DNA from: a virus
IMG/VR virus record: IMGVR_UViG_3300031749_000458
Span: 1 to 28,466 of that record
Length of the DNA stretch: 28,466 bases
Reading direction: 5' to 3' (one strand)
Shown here: positions 3,009 to 28,466 of the stretch, piece by piece
Position numbering within the stretch: the stretch's first letter is position 1
Layout of the letters: the number at the start of each line of letters is the position of its first letter
Translations under genes and position numbers: made by a program
The notes under the pieces: model-generated
Seen by the model: only the letters and a program-made list of their open reading frames with translations
What the model was told of the DNA's origin: nothing
Database searches by the model: none

Positions 3009-3323
3009 CTACTTCTCAATCCTGCCGATTCGGCTCAGGATTTTCGTTAGGCGCTCTGCTGGCTTGTCTTGTCCGAGACAGAGCGCGATTGCGCTTGCCA
3101 TGCAATTCATCAGCACGATCGCGCGCCGTGCATCGCGTCGTTCGGCGGCCTCTACCATGAGACGCAACTGCGCGAGCGAATGCTGGCGCGCCTGCTCGAA
3201 CGTCAACCCGCAGGCGACACAGGCTTCTGCGACCCACTCATCGAGGCGAAGCGGTCCACGACGGCGGTTTGCCCGCCTGTTATCGCGGCCATCCTTTTCA
3301 GGCGCCGTTGCAGCCAGCGCTCG
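3009..3323 (-). CDS. Tail assembly chaperone T-frame extension (made as a G-T fusion by -1 frameshift)
   Basis: In the -1 frame relative to the upstream G gene there is a stop (TAA) just before the slippery site, then an open stretch of 104 codons ending with TAG at 3009. This is what a programmed G/GT tail chaperone frameshift looks like. In long-tailed phages a minority GT fusion and the majority G protein together chaperone the tape measure. The extension begins RALAATAPEKDGRD, has an Arg-rich linker, then DEWVAEACVACGLTFEQ and a helical C-terminus. A simpler alternative is independent initiation at TTG 3206, which overlaps the G stop as TTGA and would give 65 residues. The tape-measure gene starts 5 nt downstream. 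Confidence 0.78.
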   Translation of the reverse strand, partial: RALAATAPEKDGRDNRRANRRRGPLRLDEWVAEACVACGLTFEQARQHSLAQLRLMVEAAERRDARRAIVLMNCMASAIALCLGQDKPAERLTKILSRIGRIEK

Positions 3324-3582: not shown

Positions 3583-4743
3583 CTACTCCTCTGTTGCTAT
3601 TTGGAACGGATCAGTCCATGCAGACGGTCCGCGATTGTTCCGGGCCCTGATCCGAAACCAGTAAACTGTGCCATAGTTCGCACTTGTCCAGACAAAGCTG
3701 TTTTCTGACGGCTGAACAGTAGCAATCCACGTCCACGGTCCAACGCTCGACCGTGCGAATTCAATGTCAGTCAGCGCCCCCTGCTCATTGGTATCAGTCC
3801 AGCTAATCTCAACCGCGCCTTGTTCGGTCCAGACAGCGCCAGGCTCATCGGGTACGGTAGGGAGCGATGGCAATGTCTTGAATCCCGGATACGTCCGACT
3901 TCTTGCTGCTGCATCGGTCTTTGCCCAGAACGGTGCCAATCCGAACGCTGCGGCCTCGCGGATCATTATCTTGGACTTGGGTGATTCGTCGCCGTAGTAT
4001 TCCTCCCAGAATGCGTATCGGCCCCTGAGCCGTTTCACCAGCTCATGCTGTGCGGTAAAAGCAAGCTGCCCGTTCAGGTAAACCAAAACGCGGCCCTTGT
4101 TCCAGTCCAGTACGACCCTTCCGTTGTGGTCAACTCCGTACTCGAGCATTTGATCCGGGAACCGCCATAGGGCGACTTCGCTATACATGATGCCGTCAAC
4201 GATGAAGTCGAGGATAACAGCGTTACGATGAAACCGCACGTGGACGATGTTGTGAATCCAGTTCGGTGTATTGCTCGGGCCGCAAGCCATTACAAACAGC
4301 CCGTCAGGGCCTTCTCCAGCGATTTGTTCCCATCTGAATGTCGCAGTGAGCTCAATCGGCTCGCCTCGTAAGACCTGGCAGGCGTAGATCGTCTTGCTCA
4401 GTCCGAATTTGCTGGCCGTTAGGTAACCGCACTGCACCATTCCGTAGAGACTCCGAGCTTGGCCGCCAGGACCGATCAGCACCCATTCATCGCCGAGTAG
4501 CGGGTACCCTGCAGAAGGTTCCTCCGTGTCAGGGCGATTGAAGTCGTCGTACAGCAACGCAGATTTAAGGCCCATCGTCATGTTTGGCCGGGGTATCGTG
4601 CCGAGGGACGCCTGTCGCTTGACCATGATTCCAAGTGCGGTTCTTGCCTTGCCAACCGGTGCAACCGGCTGGGCATCGCAGATCGTGAGTCCATTGCAAA
4701 GGAGTCCGCTCGCTATCGCTATGACTGTTAAGTGTGTCCTCAT
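3583..4743 (-). CDS. Secreted LamG/ConA-like protein with C-terminal fibronectin type III domain
   Basis: 386 residues from the ATG at 4743. Longer forms from upstream codons up to 4791 would place 12-16 residues before the hydrophobic segment. Residues 1-24 look like a Sec signal peptide (MRTHLTVIAIASGLLCNGLT, then a CDA-type cleavage site). Residues about 55-280 carry the YDDFNRPDTEEP opening shared with three genes upstream and a jelly-roll pattern with VYLNGQLAFT, typical of LamG/concanavalin-type carbohydrate-binding folds. Residues about 295-386 fit a fibronectin type III domain (GAVEISWTDTN ... VYWFRIRARNNRGPSAWT). It is the largest and most divergent of the four paralogs and the only one with a signal peptide and FN3 domain. 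It may be exported from the infected cell or be a tail appendage; the signal favours export. Confidence 0.72.
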   Translation of the reverse strand: MRTHLTVIAIASGLLCNGLTICDAQPVAPVGKARTALGIMVKRQASLGTIPRPNMTMGLKSALLYDDFNRPDTEEPSAGYPLLGDEWVLIGPGGQARSLYGMVQCGYLTASKFGLSKTIYACQVLRGEPIELTATFRWEQIAGEGPDGLFVMACGPSNTPNWIHNIVHVRFHRNAVILDFIVDGIMYSEVALWRFPDQMLEYGVDHNGRVVLDWNKGRVLVYLNGQLAFTAQHELVKRLRGRYAFWEEYYGDESPKSKIMIREAAAFGLAPFWAKTDAAARSRTYPGFKTLPSLPTVPDEPGAVWTEQGAVEISWTDTNEQGALTDIEFARSSVGPWTWIATVQPSENSFVWTSANYGTVYWFRIRARNNRGPSAWTDPFQIATEE

Positions 4744-4854
4744 ATTTTCGCTCAGCTTTTTCACCTGATTGGAGCACATTGCATACACCACTGAATTGCA
4801 AGCAGTTATAGCGATTTTTCGAGGTGTTTTTGCGCCTTGTCGGCTTACACGGTG

Positions 4855-5670
4855 TCATAGAGCGATTACCCAACGAGTGTCGCGCTGTCTTGGTACGGAA
4901 GGTCGAGGGGGATCAATTGATGCGCCAAGTTCTTTGAACGCAAGCTCCGCCGTTGCCTTGAGATAGCTGTCATAGCAGGCTTGCCAGTAACAGGTTGCTC
5001 CAAGAACTTGCCCGAGTAGGCCCGTCTGCACTTTCAATAAATCGACCCCGTTAATTGAGACCGTCACCGTACCAGCCGCAGCGTTTATGTCAGCTATTAC
5101 GAGGTAATGGATTCCGACGCTGAGCTGAGGATCGAAGAACTGTTGCTTTCTGAACGTCTCGACACCGTTCTTGCGGATGCGAACGTCGCAACGCGATCGT
5201 CTGACGGCGATATGCAAGCCATTGGCACCTGAACAAGCGTTCTGTTCATTCGTGCAGCCCATGCTCATCCAACCCGGATAAGAAAGCCCGTTGGGCACCA
5301 ACGCCCAGCGGACTTCAGCAAACAGAATCGTAGGGGCTGCGCAAGGGCCACGCTCGTTTATGAGGACGAATTGACCGTCGCGGGTCTGCCGTGACGATGT
5401 TGCGTAGCCTGACCTGATGCAGCCGTACCGTCCCGGAGCTACGCCACTTTCGTTAGCGATCAGCCACTTCCCACCCCGAACCGCCGTGCCTAGGTCCGGT
5501 TCGGTTGTGTCGGCGCGGTTGAAATCATCGTACAAGCAGAGGCGCCGATGTTCCACCTGATCGTATCGGCTTTCTCTCCAGTGCATTGCAAGTCCAGTGG
5601 CTAACGCTCGATGCCATACCCCGCCTTCCGAGTAGTCTATGTCCGATACTAAGCTGGCGCGTTCTGCCAC
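4855..5670 (-). CDS. LamG/ConA-like domain protein (paralog 3 of 4)
   Basis: 271 residues from GTG 5670, which overlaps the previous gene by 22 nt. An ATG at 5586 gives MHWRESRYDQ and matches the MxW start of its paralogs, so the shorter form may be right. The signature YDDFNRADTTEPDLGT is followed by GGKWLI, a beta-rich middle and VTVSINGVDLLKV, which corresponds to the NG-turn strand in LamG-like jelly rolls. This fold usually binds glycans or other surface ligands. The C-terminal 25 residues (IDPPRPSVPRQRDT) are Pro/Arg-rich and absent from the neighbours. Function as a host-surface or virion decoration protein is inferred from the fold pattern and location. Confidence 0.7.
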   Translation of the reverse strand: MAERASLVSDIDYSEGGVWHRALATGLAMHWRESRYDQVEHRRLCLYDDFNRADTTEPDLGTAVRGGKWLIANESGVAPGRYGCIRSGYATSSRQTRDGQFVLINERGPCAAPTILFAEVRWALVPNGLSYPGWMSMGCTNEQNACSGANGLHIAVRRSRCDVRIRKNGVETFRKQQFFDPQLSVGIHYLVIADINAAAGTVTVSINGVDLLKVQTGLLGQVLGATCYWQACYDSYLKATAELAFKELGASIDPPRPSVPRQRDTRWVIAL

Positions 5671-6392
5671 CCCCAGCGCGCATAGGCGCTCACCTCCTTG
5701 ATTGCAGCTTCTGCCGTTGAATTGCCGTCGGAGTAAGTTGACTCCCAGAATGCGTATGGCCCACAGACTTCGGCAATTGCGCTGTTCTGATAAGTGAGCT
5801 GCAACTCGCCGTTCACCCAGATTGTGACCCTGCCGAGGTCGGGATCAATCTTTGCTACAAACAAGTGCGGCGTATTTAGAGGCAGCGCCGGGTTTATGCT
5901 CTCGGTTGCGTAGGGTGTAAACACATCGTTCTTGATGCGGTCAATGCTTACAGATGATCGACTGAATCTGAGATGGACGCAATCCTTGACTATGTAAGGC
6001 TCAATCGAAGGCCCGCACCCGCATGCAAGAAGGCCCTCAGCACCGCTACCGCCACTAGGGAGCCAAATGCCGCGCATTAAGAGCTGTGTTACCATGCCAC
6101 CCAACGCGTAAGGCGTAATTGCGAACCACGTGCCGGCACTACCAACAACTGTCGTTGTAGCACGCCCGGATCTGATGCAACCGCGCGTGCCCGGCACCCT
6201 CGCGCCAATGCCGCCAATGATCCATCGACCGCCAATCACCGGCGTTCCGAGGTCTGGCTCTGTCGTATCGGCCCGGTTGAAGTCGTCGTACACGGCTAAG
6301 CGTCCAACCTGCAGTGACTGTGGCTTGTTGCCAGTCCAATTCGCAGGCTGACCAACCTGTATCTGCTGTGGCTTTTCGTTTGTCCAATTCAT
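5649..6392 (-). CDS. LamG/ConA-like domain protein (paralog 2 of 4)
   Basis: 247 residues; the start overlaps the preceding stop as ATGA. The N-terminus holds a 16-residue tandem repeat (NWTNEKPQQIQVGQPA then NWTGNKPQSLQVGRLA), followed by VYDDFNRADTTEPDLGT and a beta-rich domain containing VHLRFSRSSVSID and VTIWVNGELQLTY. The arrangement matches its neighbours, indicating serial gene duplication. The N-terminal repeat resembles the MAWSNDKPE leader of paralog 1 and may be an attachment peptide. Ligand binding is inferred from the fold. There is no signal peptide here, unlike the last member. Confidence 0.75.
   Translation of the reverse strand: MNWTNEKPQQIQVGQPANWTGNKPQSLQVGRLAVYDDFNRADTTEPDLGTPVIGGRWIIGGIGARVPGTRGCIRSGRATTTVVGSAGTWFAITPYALGGMVTQLLMRGIWLPSGGSGAEGLLACGCGPSIEPYIVKDCVHLRFSRSSVSIDRIKNDVFTPYATESINPALPLNTPHLFVAKIDPDLGRVTIWVNGELQLTYQNSAIAEVCGPYAFWESTYSDGNSTAEAAIKEVSAYARWGWQNAPA
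6297..6392 (-). repeat. 48-bp tandem duplication at the start of a LamG-like gene
   Basis: The first 16 codons of this gene are repeated once, giving two copies of the NWT(N/G)(E/N)KPQ(Q/S)(I/L)QVG(Q/R)(P/L)A unit. The period is 48 bp and the frame is kept. Confidence 0.85.
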
Positions 6393-7096
6393 ACGCTGAT
6401 CGCCTCAGGAACGCTGTTGGCCAATCCACCATCGGTCGCAACGCTGAACCCGCAAATCTTACCCTCGCACGTTGAGTCGGCAGCTGGATAGCTGAGCTGG
6501 AAGAACGGAATTTGGTAAAGATGCTGAATGATCGCCGAGGTCGAGACGGTAACCTTGAGCGCGCCGTTCACGTATAGCCCGACGACCCCGCGGTACGGGT
6601 CGATCCTCCAGACAAGCGTGTGAACTACGCCGGTCGAAAGTTCAGGTGAAATCGCAGCCTGCTGGAGGTTGGTCATATTGCCATTGCCGAATACGTCAAG
6701 CGTTATGCTGCCCCGGTACCAGCGGGAGTAAATCGCGTTGTAAACGACATAGGGCGACAGCGACTTGGCGAAGCCAGTGCCGAAGAACGGTGGGCCGCCG
6801 GTCCCGCCAGCCGTGTCCCATCTGGCCTTGAAGGTCAGTTGAATCGCTTTGCGGTTTATATCCGCCAACGTGGCGTAGAAGTTGCCACCACTGCCAACTA
6901 CGCTGGACACAACGACGTTGTTCAGAATCTTGCCCTTCGACGCCGGGGTTGTGCCATTGCCGTTGCGCAAAATCCATGGACCGCCTCGTCGTGCAATGCC
7001 AAGGTCCGGTTCTGTCGTGTTTGCGCGGTTGAAATCGTCGTCAACCGCTAAAACCGATGCGAGAATGATTTCGGGCTTGTCGTTGCTCCATGCCAT
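6389..7096 (-). CDS. LamG/ConA-like domain protein (paralog 1 of 4)
   Basis: 235 residues. The ATG at 7096 has AAGGAG 7 nt upstream, which also holds the preceding gene's stop. The N-terminal leader MAWSNDKPEIILA precedes DDDFNRANTTEPDLG, the opening shared by all four copies, then GGPWIL, a glycine-rich beta region, and VHTLVWRIDPYRGVVGLYVN, the conserved NG strand of the jelly-roll fold. It is first of four adjacent paralogs, between the tail tube block and the tail chaperones. Likely roles are glycan binding on the virion or at the host surface. The C-terminus (GLANSVPEAISV) is short and unlike the others. Confidence 0.74.
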   Translation of the reverse strand: MAWSNDKPEIILASVLAVDDDFNRANTTEPDLGIARRGGPWILRNGNGTTPASKGKILNNVVVSSVVGSGGNFYATLADINRKAIQLTFKARWDTAGGTGGPPFFGTGFAKSLSPYVVYNAIYSRWYRGSITLDVFGNGNMTNLQQAAISPELSTGVVHTLVWRIDPYRGVVGLYVNGALKVTVSTSAIIQHLYQIPFFQLSYPAADSTCEGKICGFSVATDGGLANSVPEAISV

Positions 7097-16853: not shown

Positions 16854-18290
16854 CTACGCAACCATGATCTTTCGGGTCCGGGTCAGTAATGCGTATCCGC
16901 CACTCACGGCGTCAATCATGTCATCGTGTTTGCCAGCCGGGAACTCCTCGGCCTGCCGAATGAATTCAACGTTCCAATCGCCGCTGACGAGAAAGAATTT
17001 GCCAGCTTCCGCAAGCGCAATCCAAGGAAGCGCGCGAGTCAGTTTGTCTGTTTCAACGCGGACCGGGATTGACTTGACGTCCGGCGGGAGAACTTCGCGA
17101 AGGTTCGAGTAGGCCGTCTCGAACCCGCCTTGCGCCTCGACGCCCACGAGGATTCGTTCTGCCTCGGCAATGGCTCTGATTCGTTCCCGCGCCTGCGGCC
17201 ACCACCAACGACCGGTCACGATGTTCGCAACGTAGCAGTTGCCATCCCTGTCAATGCCGACCTTTGCCCCGGCCGTCATGTCGGGGTCGGGTCCGGTCGT
17301 GCGGGCCTCGGTAGCTGCCAAGTCCCAGAACCTTGTCCACCGTACGCCCTCGGGAACGAGCTCTGGCGGGATGATTTTGATCTTGTCAACGTGGATGATA
17401 TTTCCGCCGCGTGCCATCGGCCTGCCACAGTACAGCGCCGACCAGATGTACGTACCGGTTGTCTGCCTGATCGCCTTGAGCCTCTCAATCGAGTAGTATT
17501 CAGGCCAGAGCGCCTCGCCCGGTTTCCGGCCAATCGGGTCGTTTTCCTCGGCAATTGCAGGCAAGTTAACCACCGTCCATGTCTCGTCCTGCACGCCAGC
17601 CGCTTCAATCTCGGCCATTCGCTGCGGGTCGGTAAGCCGGCCCACAAGGTCGTCCACGTGCCATCGCGTCATTATCACGATTATTGACCCCCACGGCGCA
17701 AGCCGAGTGTAGGCAACGGATCGGTACCAGTCCCACACGTTCTCGCGCGCTGCGGCGCTCGTTGCCTCGGCAAAATCCTTGTGTGGATCATCAATAATGA
17801 GAAGGTCAGCCGGGTGGCCAGTGAGCGAGCTGCCAATACCAACCGCTTTGTACGTCCCGCCACCAACAACCGACCAGTTGTCAACGCTTTGATTGGCCGG
17901 GTCGAGCTTTGTATTGAACAGCCATGCATGCTCGCCGCTCATTATCCTGTCGCGCGTCATTCGGCTGTGCCGATGACTGAGGTCTTTGGCGTAACTGGCC
18001 ACCACTATTCGGGTAGTCTTGGTTCGGCCAAGCAGCCATGCCGGAAATTCGACAGCAACAAGCCGACTTTTACCGTGCTGCGGTGGCACCGTCACGATCA
18101 GCCGCCGTATTTCGCCGGATGCAACTCGCTGCAGGAAGGCGGGCAAGTGCCGGTGCAACCTGCCAGGATGGTACTTGGGGTCGCACAGAAGGACAGTGAA
18201 CAGCAGGTCCCGCCATGCCTCAGCACGAGCTATGGCCGGGTCCAGTTCCGCCCGCCTCGTAATCAGGCTGTTTTTGGACTTCGGACCCAT
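16854..18290 (-). CDS. Terminase large subunit
   Basis: 478 residues from the ATG at 18290, chosen over 18296 because AAAGGA is properly spaced for it. The ATPase domain has Walker A VPPQHGKS at 68-75 and Walker B LLIIDDPHKD at 163-172, followed by the coupling segment IVIMTRWHVDDL. The C-terminal RNase H-like nuclease shows TRFWDLAATEA and the acidic end motif GKHDDMIDAVSGG. It packages DNA into the prohead and cuts the concatemer. The gene overlaps TerS by about 70 nt. Family membership is clear; I cannot tell the packaging strategy (cos or headful) from the sequence. Confidence 0.95.
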   Translation of the reverse strand: MGPKSKNSLITRRAELDPAIARAEAWRDLLFTVLLCDPKYHPGRLHRHLPAFLQRVASGEIRRLIVTVPPQHGKSRLVAVEFPAWLLGRTKTTRIVVASYAKDLSHRHSRMTRDRIMSGEHAWLFNTKLDPANQSVDNWSVVGGGTYKAVGIGSSLTGHPADLLIIDDPHKDFAEATSAAARENVWDWYRSVAYTRLAPWGSIIVIMTRWHVDDLVGRLTDPQRMAEIEAAGVQDETWTVVNLPAIAEENDPIGRKPGEALWPEYYSIERLKAIRQTTGTYIWSALYCGRPMARGGNIIHVDKIKIIPPELVPEGVRWTRFWDLAATEARTTGPDPDMTAGAKVGIDRDGNCYVANIVTGRWWWPQARERIRAIAEAERILVGVEAQGGFETAYSNLREVLPPDVKSIPVRVETDKLTRALPWIALAEAGKFFLVSGDWNVEFIRQAEEFPAGKHDDMIDAVSGGYALLTRTRKIMVA

Positions 18291-18867
18291 CTCCATCCTT
18301 TAGCTGATGCTCGCGCATCTCGATTTCACGGCGTAACAGCTCCAGATACGCTTCTCGAACCCTTTCCAACTTGAACGGGAGCTCGCCGCCTTCGACCTGA
18401 ATAGGACCGCCATCAGGGCCAACATGCTGCGCTTGAACAAAATCCTTCCTGCCCCAACGCAACGGCACACGCCGTTCAAGACGCCATGCCGCTGCCTGCC
18501 ACTGTCCGTTCGCTGCGGCGCTCGCAATTATCTGCAAATCACGCAGTTCCGCCTCAGCCGTTGCTTTTAGGACGGCGTCGGCAAAACGCCTGTAAATCCC
18601 CCGTCGGGAACTCGCGCCCCTCCGAAACCATTGATACAGAGTCTCTTTGTGAACCCCCGCGTACGCTGCTGCTGTTTCGACGTAGTTGCCAGCGCGCACA
18701 AGCACGCAGATTTTGTCAATTAAATCGTCAGTGAGCTTCGTGCGCCGACCTTGCTTGCGCACTTTCGGCGGCGCGCCGGATGGATACGGGCTGGTTGGGC
18801 CCGTGTACTCGACTGCCCCGCCGGTTTGGAGCGGTTCAGTTGCCGCTGGTGTGTTGTCAATCGGCAT
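18220..18867 (-). CDS. Terminase small subunit
   Basis: 215 residues. Residues about 60-85 form a helix-turn-helix (NYVETAAAYAGVHKETLYQW), followed by IYRRFADAVLKATAEAELRD and WQAAAWRLERRVPLRWGRKD. This combination is typical of small terminases of the Phage_terminase_1/HTH_17-like group that recognise the packaging site. A Pro/Gly-rich N-terminus precedes it, and the C-terminus is Glu/Lys-rich. The gene ends about 70 nt inside TerL. Confidence 0.85.
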   Translation of the reverse strand: MPIDNTPAATEPLQTGGAVEYTGPTSPYPSGAPPKVRKQGRRTKLTDDLIDKICVLVRAGNYVETAAAYAGVHKETLYQWFRRGASSRRGIYRRFADAVLKATAEAELRDLQIIASAAANGQWQAAAWRLERRVPLRWGRKDFVQAQHVGPDGGPIQVEGGELPFKLERVREAYLELLRREIEMREHQLKDGDGSEVQKQPDYEAGGTGPGHSSC

Positions 18868-18873
18868 AGGATG

Positions 18874-19659
18874 TTACGACTGCTTTGGCTGAGTGTGGCC
18901 GGACTCGGCGTCATGCTGTTCGAGGAGGGCCTTTGCAGCCTTCAGTAATTCGGCTATTGCAGTGCCGCCAGCGCGAATGTTTTTAATCCTGCCGAACTGA
19001 GCAACAGAGCTCACAAACTGGTCCCATTGGGATTCATGGCCGACAACCATCAGGTCCACATGCTCATCGTATTTTTTGAGCCATTCAAGCACGCGATCGA
19101 ATTGATGCGGCAAGAACATGAACAGCAAGCACTTTTGCTCGAACTCGAGGGTCGGCGTGAGGATTTGAATGTCAGCGAACTTTTTGTCCACAGGGAGTGC
19201 GTCCTGCGGGATGCCGGTCGAAAGGAGGTCGTCGGCGTTGTCGATCAGCCGGAGCATTTCAGCGAGGATGTCCTTGTCGTCAAGGCCGACGAGCGCGTTA
19301 TGCGCGAGCTGCTTTGCGATCATCTGAGACCGGGTCATTTCAGCGCGGTCGATCAGGACCCAAGCGGTGGTGATGCCTGCGCGGAGGGCGGCTTTGCGTC
19401 TGTTATGGCCGCTCACGATCCGGATTGGGCCGACGCCCTTCGGTTGTGCGCAGTAGGGGATTGACTCGAGCTTGCCGCGTTTGCGGATGTTCTCGACGAG
19501 GGTCTCGAACTCGCGCGGCGGCATCATGCGCGCGTTAATGTCCGACTCCTGCAGCCGTTCAAGCCATACCTCGGCCAACACCATCTCGTTGCCGACGTCA
19601 ATTTCGCGGATAATCACGTTATCCGCTATTTGTTCACCTTGGTGCTCGTTTTCTGCCAT
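18874..19659 (-). CDS. ParB N-terminal domain protein
   Basis: 261 residues from the ATG at 19659, which has AGAAGGA upstream; an ATG at 19680 would add seven residues. Residues about 28-120 carry the ParB/sulfiredoxin-like fold, with PREFETLVENIRKRGKLESI and GHNRRKAALRAGITTAWVLI (the ParB CTPase box is GxxRRxAA). The C-terminal half is helical and Leu-rich without a recognisable DNA-binding domain. In phages this domain occurs next to terminases and DNA-modification genes, where it may act as a CTP-driven DNA switch or an endonuclease. It overlaps the methyltransferase gene by 34 nt. The role is not proven. Confidence 0.85.
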   Translation of the reverse strand: MAENEHQGEQIADNVIIREIDVGNEMVLAEVWLERLQESDINARMMPPREFETLVENIRKRGKLESIPYCAQPKGVGPIRIVSGHNRRKAALRAGITTAWVLIDRAEMTRSQMIAKQLAHNALVGLDDKDILAEMLRLIDNADDLLSTGIPQDALPVDKKFADIQILTPTLEFEQKCLLFMFLPHQFDRVLEWLKKYDEHVDLMVVGHESQWDQFVSSVAQFGRIKNIRAGGTAIAELLKAAKALLEQHDAESGHTQPKQS

Positions 19660-21089
19660 AGCTTTTCCTTCTGTAGCCATTTCTTCAAGATTTGTCCCGA
19701 GGGACTTTCGTCAATCTCGCAGGCATACGTGAGCCGATACCGACTACCCTCGCGTTCACGGCTCATGAGCTTCATTATGCCACGCAGTCCTTTGGCTTCG
19801 TGCAGCCTAGTCCGTTCGATCGTGAACACCCTGTGCACGCGAGCCGAAATCCAAGAGTTGAGGTACCGGAGCGGTTCGCGCGACGCAGCAATCATTGTTG
19901 TAAGCCGGGTCAATCGAAGCGTGGTATGGGGTGCGCCGAATGCGTAGTCGATCAGGATCGCATCGGCGAATTGGCCGCCGGCCCGGCTCTCGCGGACAGG
20001 ATTGAAGTTGTAGCCGATCACCCCGGCAACCTTGCCGTTTACGAGTACGGCCACCGACTTCTGCGCCCGCCCGCCCTTTATCCTGTGGCACCAAAGCTCC
20101 CGGTAGTATTCCGCCGCGTTGTCGCCGATTGAGACAACCTTGATGTCCGACTGTTCGGTTATGTCCTCGGTCGGGGAAATTACGGGAACCGGTAACGGCA
20201 CAACGCGTCGCTCGGGCGCAATCGCAACCGCCCGCGGACGGTCCTCGGGCAGTACGCTTTGCACAATGTCCGGGTGATTCGCGGTGATAAAAATGAAGAA
20301 GTCACAGCGGAGCCGACGGACGTAAACTGGCGTTCCGTGCATGTGCGCCCGGTCGGTGAACTGCTCGCAGAGTAGGAGCGCCTTCCAGTTTGCCGAATCC
20401 TCGATCAGTTTCTTGACGTGCACCTCCGGGTCGAACAGGGTGTATGACGGTTCACGCCATGTCAGCCGGCCGCCAGTCGAGTAAAAGCGCTCAAACCCGG
20501 ACTTGTAACTGGGCGGCGCAGCAAAAATGATCGTGCCGGGATCATCTTTGACGAGGTTCACGTGATCAAAGATGTCCAGCAACTCGAATGAAATTCCATG
20601 TACTCTATTCGCCAACTCGCGTATGGACCGTTCGATACGGGCAACATGCTGTTCCTTCCTTGTCTGCATGTCGTATGCAAACGCCGCTTCCCATGCGATT
20701 TTTGATGCCGCTTCCCGCTTCGCAAGGGCCTGCGTAAAAATCACTTCGGCGGCGTCCCTCGCTGGATCACCGGTCATCGGTAACGGCTTGCCGTCGAGTT
20801 TGATGTCGAGGTCTCGGAGGTCCCTGCCGGTGACTGCGTACCCAAGGGCAGCAGAAAACAACGTGACATCACTGGTTTCGATCCGGTCCGGCGGATACCC
20901 GGCGGCCAAGTAGTATTGGGCCATTGCCAGGCTTCCAGCGCACGGCTCAACGATCCTGTTGTACCCTTTGGCACGGAGTGCCTCGACAACTGTTGCGATA
21001 AAGCCTCGTTCCGGCCCGTACGAGTCGGCCAGAGTCAGAATTGTCGGCGCCGCAAATCCGGCCCCTTTTGTTAATGACGATCCACCCAT
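19626..21089 (-). CDS. DNA methyltransferase-like protein fused to Mom/GNAT-like C-terminal domain
   Basis: 487 residues. Residues 1 to about 300 look like a Rossmann methyltransferase: motif I IVEPCAGSLAMAQ at 46-58 and a motif IV-like TIIFAAPPSYKSGFERFY near 186-203, where the usual D/N-PP-Y acidic or amide residue is replaced by Ala. Residues about 320-487 (AVLVNGKVAGVIGY, FADAILIDYAFGA, TRLTTMIAAS) resemble the GNAT-type fold of Mom-like DNA base-modification enzymes, seen in proteins annotated as antirestriction adenine methyltransferases. It likely modifies phage DNA to escape restriction enzymes, paired with the ParB-like protein downstream. The ATG lies only 4 nt after the tRNA CCA end, with no Shine-Dalgarno. 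The family link is from memory of patterns and should be treated as probable. Confidence 0.72.
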   Translation of the reverse strand: MGGSSLTKGAGFAAPTILTLADSYGPERGFIATVVEALRAKGYNRIVEPCAGSLAMAQYYLAAGYPPDRIETSDVTLFSAALGYAVTGRDLRDLDIKLDGKPLPMTGDPARDAAEVIFTQALAKREAASKIAWEAAFAYDMQTRKEQHVARIERSIRELANRVHGISFELLDIFDHVNLVKDDPGTIIFAAPPSYKSGFERFYSTGGRLTWREPSYTLFDPEVHVKKLIEDSANWKALLLCEQFTDRAHMHGTPVYVRRLRCDFFIFITANHPDIVQSVLPEDRPRAVAIAPERRVVPLPVPVISPTEDITEQSDIKVVSIGDNAAEYYRELWCHRIKGGRAQKSVAVLVNGKVAGVIGYNFNPVRESRAGGQFADAILIDYAFGAPHTTLRLTRLTTMIAASREPLRYLNSWISARVHRVFTIERTRLHEAKGLRGIMKLMSREREGSRYRLTYACEIDESPSGQILKKWLQKEKLWQKTSTKVNK

Positions 21090-21093
21090 AAAA

Positions 21094-21168
21094 TGGTCCG
21101 GCGGGATGGACTTGAACCACCATACACCGCTTAGTTGCGGTTGCTCTATCCAATTGAGCTACCGCCGG
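21094..21168 (-). tRNA. tRNA gene with 6-nt anticodon loop (anticodon ambiguous; CUA possible)
   Basis: The minus strand folds into a full cloverleaf: acceptor CCGGCGG/CCGCCGG, D arm GCTC/GAGC with GG in the loop, anticodon stem ACCGC/GCGGT, T arm GGTGG-TTCAAGT-CCATC, and an encoded CCA. The anticodon loop is AACTAA, six bases rather than seven, with no U at the usual position before the anticodon. The triplet could be read as CUA (amber), ACU (Ser) or another, so the amino acid cannot be assigned. The variable loop is 4 nt. It starts immediately after the stop codon of the DUF488 gene and ends 4 nt before the methyltransferase start, so processing would leave the latter mRNA nearly leaderless. 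A degenerate or specialised tRNA is possible. Confidence 0.85.
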
Positions 21169-21579
21169 TTACACCAATACACGCTTGCAGCCGTTCGATG
21201 CGTTTTTGCCCAGATCATACTCCATTACGACAGCAAGGCCCCTCTGCGTGATGAATTGAGCGAGTGTCGTTCGGTGGCAGCCAATCGGCGACGACTCCCA
21301 GCAGAGTAGGACTGCGTTTTCGGGTAGTTCCTTCACGATCGACGCCAACTCGCCGCTGATTTCGAGGGCCTTAAGTTGGGCCAGGTACCGCTCTTCCCAC
21401 TCGGGAACGTTGCGAACGGCCCATACCGCGTCATTCGGAGCGAACCTGGGTTCCCACATCATCATCGCCGGGACCCACCATCTTGGTGCTGTCCGGCTTA
21501 TTCGGACTTGGACGTGGCTCGGCGGCAGACGCTTGTACGCGCCGTAATAGGACGTCCACAATCGTTTCGTTTCATTCAT
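21169..21579 (-). CDS. DUF488-like protein, paralog A
   Basis: 136 residues. Conserved features shared with a second copy at 23649-24056 are LWTSYYG at the N-terminus, VRI(S/N)R, and a C-terminal LLCWESSPIGCHRTTLAQF, the Cys-x-CHR motif that marks DUF488 proteins. The family has no settled biochemical role; the Cys/His residues suggest metal or substrate binding. The ATG at 21579 begins MNETK, encoded by the GAAACGAAAC motif. The stop codon abuts the tRNA directly. Its product is probably cytoplasmic. Confidence 0.8.
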   Translation of the reverse strand: MNETKRLWTSYYGAYKRLPPSHVQVRISRTAPRWWVPAMMMWEPRFAPNDAVWAVRNVPEWEERYLAQLKALEISGELASIVKELPENAVLLCWESSPIGCHRTTLAQFITQRGLAVVMEYDLGKNASNGCKRVLV

Positions 21580-23648: not shown

Positions 23649-24056
23649 TTAAAGGCTGAGCTCCAATTGCGCTGTTGGAGACTGTGCTTCTGGCTGCCAC
23701 TCAGCCACTTCCGCGTAGCCACGTTCGGTGAGAAACTTCGCAAGCTCGCTCCTGTGGCACGTCTCCGCGTCCTTTTCGTAGCAGCAAAGGAAGGCGCCGT
23801 CCGGCAAAGCCTCAACGATCGCTTTCAGCACCCCCTGCTCGTCGAGGTGCTGAAGCTGGGCCCTGTAGTGGGCCCGCCAAGCAGGGTCATCGACTTCGAC
23901 TTGCCCCGCCCAAGCCAGCTTCATCCACACCGGGGCCAACTCCTTTGCCTCGATCAGCTTGTCCAGCCAGCTTGGCCGGCTGTTACTGATCTGGACCCGG
24001 ACGGCCCCCTTTGGTAGGTGCCGTCCGTAGTAGCTTGTCCAAAGTGTTTTCTTCAT
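23649..24056 (-). CDS. DUF488-like protein, paralog B
   Basis: 135 residues from ATG 24056 (MKKTLWTSYYG), chosen because it aligns with paralog A; upstream extensions reading to 24236 run through the repeat region and are not credible. It shares LWTSYYG, VRVQISNS and the C-terminal LCCYEKDAETCHRSELAKFL, with the CHR motif of DUF488. The two copies are moderately diverged, implying an old duplication or two separate gains. The gene lies at the end of a 270-bp gap with three 51-bp repeats, so its expression may be controlled there. Confidence 0.82.
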   Translation of the reverse strand: MKKTLWTSYYGRHLPKGAVRVQISNSRPSWLDKLIEAKELAPVWMKLAWAGQVEVDDPAWRAHYRAQLQHLDEQGVLKAIVEALPDGAFLCCYEKDAETCHRSELAKFLTERGYAEVAEWQPEAQSPTAQLELSL

Positions 24057-24326
24057 TGTTTGTTTTATTTTACGCCTATAGAATGTCACGTAACCCGCTG
24101 ATTTGCAAGCAGATAAAACGTCTCCAAGCTGATTTTTTTGCGGCAGTTGGCACTGTTTTTGTACCTCACCCACCCCAAAATGCATGCCAAGCCGGAGTTG
24201 GCACGGTTTTTGTATTGCACCCACTTCAAAAAGCATGCCAAGCCAATGTTGGCACGGTTTTTGAATGGTCGCAGTACTTCAAGATGCATCCCAGTTCCGA
24301 CCGTATTTTTCGATGGCCGCCGTCCT
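24057..24326 (-). promoter_or_regulatory. 270-bp non-coding gap between DUF5131 and DUF488 genes with repeat array
   Basis: I find no gene. The region carries three 51-bp repeats (listed separately) and, next to the downstream start, an A/T-rich stretch (GTAAAATAAAACAAACA) that could serve as a leader or promoter tail. The gap ends at the DUF5131 stop. A promoter or operator region for the downstream genes is the most likely role. Confidence 0.45.
24146..24290 (-). repeat. Three 51-bp direct repeats, each with an internal dyad
   Basis: Copies start at 24146, 24197 and 24248, with an exact 51-bp period. In the second, TTGGCACGGTTTTTG (24198-24212) faces CAAAAAGCATGCCAA (24227-24241): 12 of 15 positions pair, around a 14-nt loop. 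Copy 1 keeps TTGGCA/TGCCAA arms and most of the stem; copy 3 is decayed at its right end. The array lies in a non-coding gap. Candidates are operator repeats, a replication-like iteron set, or an RNA switch. Confidence 0.82.
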
Positions 24327-27914: not shown

Positions 27915-28466
27915 TTACCCCGGCAATGAAACCGGCTCGCCTCCCGACACCGTAACAATCCTGCCTTGGGCGCGACCGATTGCATTCCACAGCACGTTCA
28001 GTGCCGCAATCAGTTCCTCAAACTCTCGCGCAGGCTGTCTTCGCATAGGCTTGACCACAAACTCGGTCACAGCGTTAGCACCGTCGTTTCTTTCGACGAC
28101 TGCACCGCCCGAGATAGCTGCTGACGCGACTTGCGTGAGTAGCTCGTGGGCGCTCTTGCCGTCCCACTCCTCCTTCGGTTGGAAAGGCGAATAGCGATCT
28201 CTCTGACCAGCCTCGGGTTCGAGCAGCCGAATTTTTAGTGGTACGCCGGACGTCAGACCGATGTCTCCAACGATCTTCGTGAGAGCCTTTATGTGCGCGC
28301 CGCCACGGCCAATGGCACGCGGCATGTCCGCGGAGTGGACTTGTGCACAAATAACAGCAGAACGGGCAAGTTGTTCGACTGATATTTTGACACTATCCTT
28401 GTGAATTGCAATGCCAGACAGAATTTTTGACACCATCCTGGCGGTTTCATGGGCAATCTCATCCAT
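27915..28466 (-). CDS. KH-domain RNA-binding protein
   Basis: 183 residues; the ATG falls exactly on the window edge, so upstream starts cannot be excluded. Residues about 25-70 (VKISVEQLARSAVICAQVHS, then PRAIGRGGAHIKALTKIVGD) contain the KH motif GRGG at 53-56, as in YlqC/KhpA-type proteins that bind single-stranded RNA or DNA. The C-terminal part is long, with a helical end (FEELIAALNVLWNAIGRAQG), and has no recognised domain. Phage-encoded KH proteins are uncommon. It could bind phage mRNA or the single-stranded DNA also coated by SSB. Confidence 0.75.
   Translation of the reverse strand: MDEIAHETARMVSKILSGIAIHKDSVKISVEQLARSAVICAQVHSADMPRAIGRGGAHIKALTKIVGDIGLTSGVPLKIRLLEPEAGQRDRYSPFQPKEEWDGKSAHELLTQVASAAISGGAVVERNDGANAVTEFVVKPMRRQPAREFEELIAALNVLWNAIGRAQGRIVTVSGGEPVSLPG

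Follow-up and report, generated by a model that had tools for sequence, protein, structure and literature searches.

What could a phage gain from a tRNA whose anticodon loop is one base short, placed between two protein genes with hardly a base to spare? The question is raised by the only tRNA gene in an IMG/VR virus record of 28,466 bases, which was analysed over its full length and is called the window below. ARAGORN placed this gene at 21094-21168 on the minus strand, labelled 'tRNA-???' with the anticodon (ct), that is, with a six-base loop. The match to Rfam family RF00005 reached 50 bits (E 4.5e-8; gathering cut-off 29), and the tRNA is therefore genuine and not a chance resemblance.

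The tRNA gene of the window and its neighbours

An earlier note on this DNA had described a loop AACTAA lacking one base and the U before the anticodon, within an otherwise sound cloverleaf with an encoded CCA, and had suggested ARAGORN and a covariance model as checks; both called the tRNA, the short loop was confirmed, and the acceptor, D, anticodon and T stems are all intact. Read 5' to 3', the tRNA is CCGGCGG-TA-GCTC-AATTGGATA-GAGC-A-ACCGC-AACTAA-GCGGT-GTAT-GGTGG-TTCAAGT-CCATC-CCGCCGG-A-CCA. Its first base immediately follows the stop of a DUF488 gene, and four bases separate its CCA from the next ATG, so that the wedged position given in the note is also correct, the strand, which it did not name, being minus. 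The features of this region are as follows.

21094..21168, minus strand: tRNA gene with six-base anticodon loop and encoded CCA, Arg-like by clade, with D-loop A20, C35 and U36 (ARAGORN, Rfam, family comparison)
21162..21168, minus strand: 5' acceptor strand CCGGCGG, in which C1, C2 and G3 are the family signature (pairs 1-72, 2-71 and 3-70 nearly invariant in 73 family tRNAs)
21131..21136, minus strand: six-base anticodon loop AACUAA, best read as A32, (33 absent), A34 C35 U36, A37 A38 (sequence; the pattern recurs in ValentiniPuff, C-UCG-UU, and L021, C-UCU-GA)
21094..21104, minus strand: 3' acceptor strand CCGCCGG, discriminator A73 and encoded CCA (sequence)
21090..21093, minus strand: spacer TTTT, four bases, from the tRNA CCA to the fusion-gene ATG at 21089 (sequence)
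21169..21579, minus strand: DUF488 (DUF488-N3-like) gene, directly upstream of the tRNA (Pfam PF04343, 23.2 bits, cut-off 22.2)
19626..21089, minus strand: Dam-like methylase and GNAT fusion protein, 487 aa, proposed tRNA-dependent DNA-modifying enzyme (PF22555, E 2e-49; PF22559, E 5e-29)
20274..21014, minus strand: Dam-like domain, residues 26-272 (PF22555; structural match to E. coli Dam)
19662..20150, minus strand: GNAT domain, residues 314-476 (PF22559; best Foldseek match phage Mu Mom 8bv8)
18874..19680, minus strand: ParB-like gene, the conserved next gene of the set (phrog_7405, E 5e-48, and phrog_620; order kept in ValentiniPuff and FP_Brigit)
18220..18867, minus strand: terminase small subunit (phrog_4102, E 1.5e-37)
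16854..18296, minus strand: terminase large subunit (phrog_38, E 3e-99; PF03237)

The upstream gene is a member of DUF488 by its PF04343 score, and its match to PF22751 (24.2 bits) falls below the cut-off of 27. No consensus promoter was found in a scan around the tRNA, and terminator-like sites in the window were not in excess over chance. DUF488, the tRNA, the Dam-like/GNAT fusion, the ParB-like protein and terminase form a conserved gene set. In the Faecalibacterium phage FP_Brigit the order is DUF488, tRNA-Lys(CTT), Dam/GNAT, ParB-like, terminase small and terminase large subunit; in the Microbacterium phage ValentiniPuff, Dam/GNAT is gene 1, and DUF488 and a tRNA with a six-base loop (CTCGTT) lie at the opposite end of the linear genome. 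The family tRNA is unannotated in both records.

A second DUF488-family gene in the window, at 23649-24236, has no adjacent tRNA, which hints that the Dam/GNAT gene, and not DUF488 as such, is the tRNA's partner. Just upstream of this second gene, at 24185-24256, we noted near-identical inverted repeats (TGCCAAGCC...TTGGCA), with a T-rich stretch after each. Elsewhere in the window, four tandem genes at 3583-7096 (3583-4791, 4855-5670, 5649-6392 and 6389-7096) share a DDFNRADTTEPDLG-like motif and are probably duplicated genes for structural or binding proteins, and a phage protein at 27915-28466 weakly matches the KH_KhpA-B RNA-binding domain, with a score under the Pfam cut-off.

Relatives of the tRNA in phages and prophages

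Close relatives of the window were found neither by single-protein search nor with a tRNA DNA pattern nor by phage blastn, and family alignments were therefore used instead. Alignment-guided scans recovered relatives from viral contigs as well as from the genomes of bacteria belonging to Bacillota, Synergistota, Thermodesulfobacteriota, Bacteroidota and Acidobacteriota. The census holds 76 distinct loci, from which copies with identical upstream sequence were removed and of which the remainder are not all independent; three loci that end within 460 bases upstream were set aside, leaving 73 usable. In 72 of these 73 the fusion gene is preceded by a tRNA, mostly within 25 bases of the DUF488 stop, and in ValentiniPuff the association spans the genome ends. 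Across several bacterial phyla, phages and prophages keep a tRNA of this family next to the gene for the Dam-like/GNAT fusion. One locus, L062, an Acidobacteria bin contig (1-2070), is alone in having a Dam/GNAT gene and ample upstream sequence but no visible tRNA.

The distance between tRNA and fusion gene ranges from a few bases up to 1.9 kb in these relatives, and two or three family tRNAs stand in tandem in L049, L052, L057, L097, L103 and L107. The arrays before the fusion gene in L052, L057, L097 and L107 are of Gly type, sometimes with an unrelated tRNA (Trp-like, Leu) interspersed. The spacing bears on the proposal of the earlier note that tRNA processing leaves a nearly leaderless mRNA for the downstream gene and might thereby control its translation. 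Such an mRNA is possible in the window, and the junction in L069 is similarly tight, with the tRNA ending a few bases before the enzyme start; most relatives lack a tight junction, and in FP_Brigit a terminator-like hairpin and T run lie between tRNA and fusion gene. Control by processing is thus possible in the window but fails as a property of the system, and the link between tRNA and downstream gene that the note had seen holds as a functional one, by a route other than mRNA processing. A tRNA-like structure could also act in cis more generally, as an mRNA processing signal or as a DNA packaging site, given the tight junctions in the window and L069 and terminase genes two genes on. We consider this highly unlikely, since the variable distance, the tandem copies and the FP_Brigit hairpin all speak against it, and a cis element would not conserve isotype-specific anticodon and discriminator bases.

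Family anticodons correspond to Lys (CUU, once UUU), Gly (NCC) and Arg (UCU, CCG, UCG), with a Pro-like GG found twice. Across the Lys, Gly and Arg-like isotypes the pairs C1-G72, C2-G71 and G3-C70 are kept and are essentially fixed. C1-G72 was identified in 71 of the 73 family tRNAs, some counts coming from a curated list partly selected for CCG/ACG...CGG ends, and in 48 of 51 top scan hits without that selection, versus 3 of 56 distinct tRNAs (2 Pro, 1 Ile) sampled from three host genomes; of these host tRNAs, those for Lys, Gly and Arg have G1-C72 in 10 of 10 cases. Irrespective of the amino acid, the acceptor end has the look of a site recognised by a protein. The structure is under selection: the pairs from 4-69 to 7-66 and all five of the anticodon stem vary freely in sequence and are paired in 72-73 of 73 tRNAs, versus shuffle means of about 29-54. 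These pairs were counted from each tRNA's own fold, because the MAFFT tRNA alignment misplaced the anticodon arm.

Decoding features have been repeatedly lost in the family, while the CCG...CGG acceptor end is constant across isotypes. A seven-base loop with U33 is missing from 23 of 73 family tRNAs, versus none of the 56 from hosts (Fisher 5.6e-7), and this trait changed at least 14 times on the enzyme tree. The window tRNA, with its six bases, has neither the seven-base loop nor the U33 of a translating elongator, the latter present in 56/56 host tRNAs. Six-base loops were identified in three phages, namely the window (A-ACU-AA), ValentiniPuff and L021 (CTCTGA), with L032 left out of this count. 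Most relatives have the normal seven-base loop that, in the terms of the earlier note, would speak against an unusual one, while ValentiniPuff and L021 share the short form. In addition, Gly-type family tRNAs lack the D-loop GG and most Lys-type ones have an extra base in the T stem; many Lys-type tRNAs retain a normal CTCTTTA or CTCTTAA loop with U33 and could still decode.

These observations weigh on three other explanations of the odd loop. The earlier note had offered decay as the plain alternative, and the tRNA is indeed one base short and without U33; we give decay very little probability, as all stems are intact and show covariation within the family, non-standard loops of the same kind recur in the separate lineages of ValentiniPuff and L021, and the acceptor end is fixed. 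The note had also suggested that the tRNA decodes amber UAG, and an amber suppressor or -1 frameshifting tRNA can be imagined from the CUA within the loop. This candidate was rejected and is hardly credible: CUA appears only in a shifted reading of the six-base loop that puts a non-standard A at position 33, the other six-base loops lack CUA, the reading shared by all three fits arginine and not CUA, and TAG is the ordinary stop of 11 of the 36 genes in the window.

The third explanation is an ordinary phage tRNA that supplements translation, replaces nuclease-cut host tRNAs or rescues a lysogen, the odd loop conferring nuclease resistance. PMC10264068 and PMC10865867 document phage tRNAs that escape nucleases through an altered anticodon loop, and lysogeny that depends on a tRNA; nucleases could plausibly target tRNAs for Lys, Gly and Arg, and many of the Lys type keep U33. 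Like those tRNAs, the present ones are phage-encoded, with loops that are sometimes unusual. However, supplementation, nuclease evasion and tRNA-dependent lysogeny all require a tRNA that decodes, whereas U33 has been lost time and again in this family, which is bound to a single enzyme gene and tracks it across phyla. The six-base loop, the loss of U33, the bulged T stems and the missing D-loop GG of the Gly types are not favoured by translation, and the fixed C1-G72, unlike the 1-72 pair of host tRNAs of the same isotype, is left unexplained. An ordinary role is thus unlikely.

Domains of the Dam-like/GNAT fusion protein

The downstream gene, called a methyltransferase in the earlier note, does encode a Dam-like domain, fused to a GNAT domain, and is thus not a plain methyltransferase. 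An AlphaFold model of the whole fusion protein has a pLDDT of 84.7, and E. coli Dam maps onto its residues 14-278 (VIA Z about 13, about 195-200 residues), indicating a Dam fold. The catalytic motif IV, (D/N/S)PP(Y/F/W), is replaced by APPS in the window, and 34 pattern-matched homologs have NPPT in 31 cases and APPT in 2. With this non-standard motif, the Dam-like domain may position DNA more than methylate it.

The GNAT domain alone is predicted to fold with a pLDDT of 89.4 and a pTM of 0.88, and Foldseek ranks phage Mu Mom (8bv8, E 2.9e-5) as its best match. In VIA, Mom came second (Z 10.2, 145 residues), tied with generic CoA-dependent GNATs. The acetyl-CoA pyrophosphate-binding loop Q/RxxGxG/A between beta4 and alpha3, expected of a CoA-dependent GNAT, was found in none of 36 homologs. 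Pfam searches matched the window protein to PF22555 and PF22559 only and Mu Mom to PF25680, the profile-profile comparison with Mom was not significant (hhalign probability 1.9%, E 0.025), and a PDB sequence search with the fusion profile gave no significant match. FemX, leucyl/phenylalanyl-transferase and other known aminoacyl-tRNA transferases are not among the fold matches listed, which carries no weight against them.

TacT and AtaT are toxins that acetylate aminoacyl-tRNA. A GNAT fold adjoining Gly, Lys and Arg tRNAs could likewise act on charged tRNA itself, the phage tRNA being its substrate or a resistant copy. The lack of the acetyl-CoA loop, the fusion to a Dam-like DNA enzyme and a best Foldseek match that is a DNA modifier make this quite unlikely.

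A putative amino-acid donor for DNA modification

A GNAT domain without a CoA loop, its fusion to a Dam-like domain and the near-constant adjacent tRNA are most simply accounted for if the charged phage tRNA donates its amino acid to DNA. We therefore consider it likely that the tRNA supplies the amino acid in a phage system for DNA modification and is not a tRNA for translation. The phage tRNA would be charged by a host aminoacyl-tRNA synthetase (ArgRS for the window, LysRS or GlyRS for relatives), and the GNAT domain would recognise the CCG/CGG acceptor end, take the amino acid from the charged tRNA instead of acetyl-CoA, and attach it to the base, probably adenine, that the Dam-like domain presents, with the ParB-like and DUF488 proteins as presumed helpers. 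Poorly usable by the ribosome, the tRNA would be the enzyme's own aminoacyl supply, and the six-base loop without position 33 may be one of several routes by which the family dropped decoding.

A20, C35 and U or G at 36 are arginine identity elements. In the common reading of the six-base loops, position 33 is missing, C35 is kept, U or G stands at 36, and the D loop has A20. The enzyme tree puts the window into a clade (SH-aLRT 100) in which the other enzymes are accompanied by Arg-type tRNAs (UCU in L067, CCG in L069, UCG in L072 and L089, the six-base loop in ValentiniPuff), long branches leaving the placement within the clade unsure. The Gly-type tRNAs also correspond to one clade (SH-aLRT 100), and isotype follows the enzyme tree in both. 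The GNAT residues preceding a conserved PH are YGMT in most enzymes with Lys, YVMK in most with Gly, and (Y/F)(A/S)(F/V)G in the Arg clade. From the clade, these residues and the identity elements, arginine is therefore our best guess for the window tRNA, and a moderately probable one, against which stand its A73, versus U73 in its clade, and the ambiguity of a six-base loop. In L021 (2595-3126), a DUF488 gene nearly identical to that of FP_Brigit and a Lys-type enzyme accompany a tRNA of another type, with an Arg-like body, six-base loop and 3' TCTA, an apparent tRNA swap that the donor model does not explain.

Besides this swap, the enzyme without a visible tRNA in L062 and the many Lys-type tRNAs with U33 count against a donor role, as do a GNAT domain that is not Mom by sequence, a Mom Z score tied with CoA-dependent GNATs, and the use of a host tRNA by Mu.

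Evidence for tRNA-dependent DNA modification comes from Mu itself, whose adenine hypermodification is reported to depend on tRNA-Gly (PMC12908700), glycine being the amino acid reported; modification by Mom with charged tRNA-Gly is attributed to Silva et al. 2023, as cited in PMC12707154. Like Mu Mom (PF25680), its top Foldseek match, the fusion enzyme has a GNAT fold in a phage DNA-modification context and no canonical acetyl-CoA loop, Mom having an NSES motif at the equivalent place. Unlike Mom, to which it has no significant sequence relation, it is fused to a Dam-like domain, and whereas Mu uses a host tRNA, the phage here encodes its own dedicated tRNA, with Lys, Arg and possibly Pro isotypes besides Gly.

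We additionally identified Gly tRNAs beside or overlapping the gene end of stand-alone Mom homologs with a ParB-like neighbour, in the Microbacterium phage Antuna and the Arthrobacter phages Wyborn and Sonny. Those of Wyborn and Sonny are unannotated and non-standard, and that of Sonny, missed by ARAGORN, was identified by eye. The Gly tRNAs next to or overlapping the 3' end of these Microbacterium and Arthrobacter phage genes are listed here.

L165, 4654-4728: Gly tRNA
L167, 4544-4614: Gly tRNA
L173, about 3042-3115: Gly tRNA

These stand-alone homologs are a second, separate line that agrees with a donor role.

A staphylococcal non-proteinogenic tRNA-Gly serves FemXAB in cell-wall synthesis. 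There too, translation-avoiding tRNA isoacceptors serve an aminoacyl transferase with a GNAT-like fold; unlike in the phage family, the acceptor is a peptidoglycan precursor and not DNA, and the system is chromosomal.

The protein part of the present system is already in Pfam, as DAM-like-phage1/GNAT-phage-like proteins (PF22555/PF22559) with DUF488 and ParB, and carries the label 'hypothetical' in phage annotations. Outside the Silva et al. preprint and a RapZ-C/DUF488 comparative-genomics paper, both beyond the scope of our search, we found no literature link between PF22555/PF22559 proteins and tRNA. While tRNA-dependent DNA modification is known in principle from Mu, the dedicated tRNA family, its acceptor signature, relaxed decoding, variety of amino acids and Dam/GNAT partner are new as far as that search shows.

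Taken further, it seems somewhat more probable than otherwise that these ribosome-avoiding phage tRNAs (Gly, Lys, Arg and perhaps Pro) serve only as aminoacyl donors for the Dam-like/GNAT enzyme, and that the amino acids placed on the DNA differ from phage to phage and include charged ones, which are not known as tRNA-derived DNA modifications. New modified bases of lysyl or arginyl type would then be predicted in isolated phages such as FP_Brigit and ValentiniPuff, and a CCG...CGG acceptor end with a relaxed loop would serve as a rule for non-translational tRNAs that annotation pipelines miss or mislabel. If true, this would give a concrete answer to the presence of lone tRNA genes in some phages, and tRNA-dependent DNA modification would go from a single case, that of Mu with a host tRNA-Gly, to a broad strategy in which phages use their own tRNAs and several amino acids.
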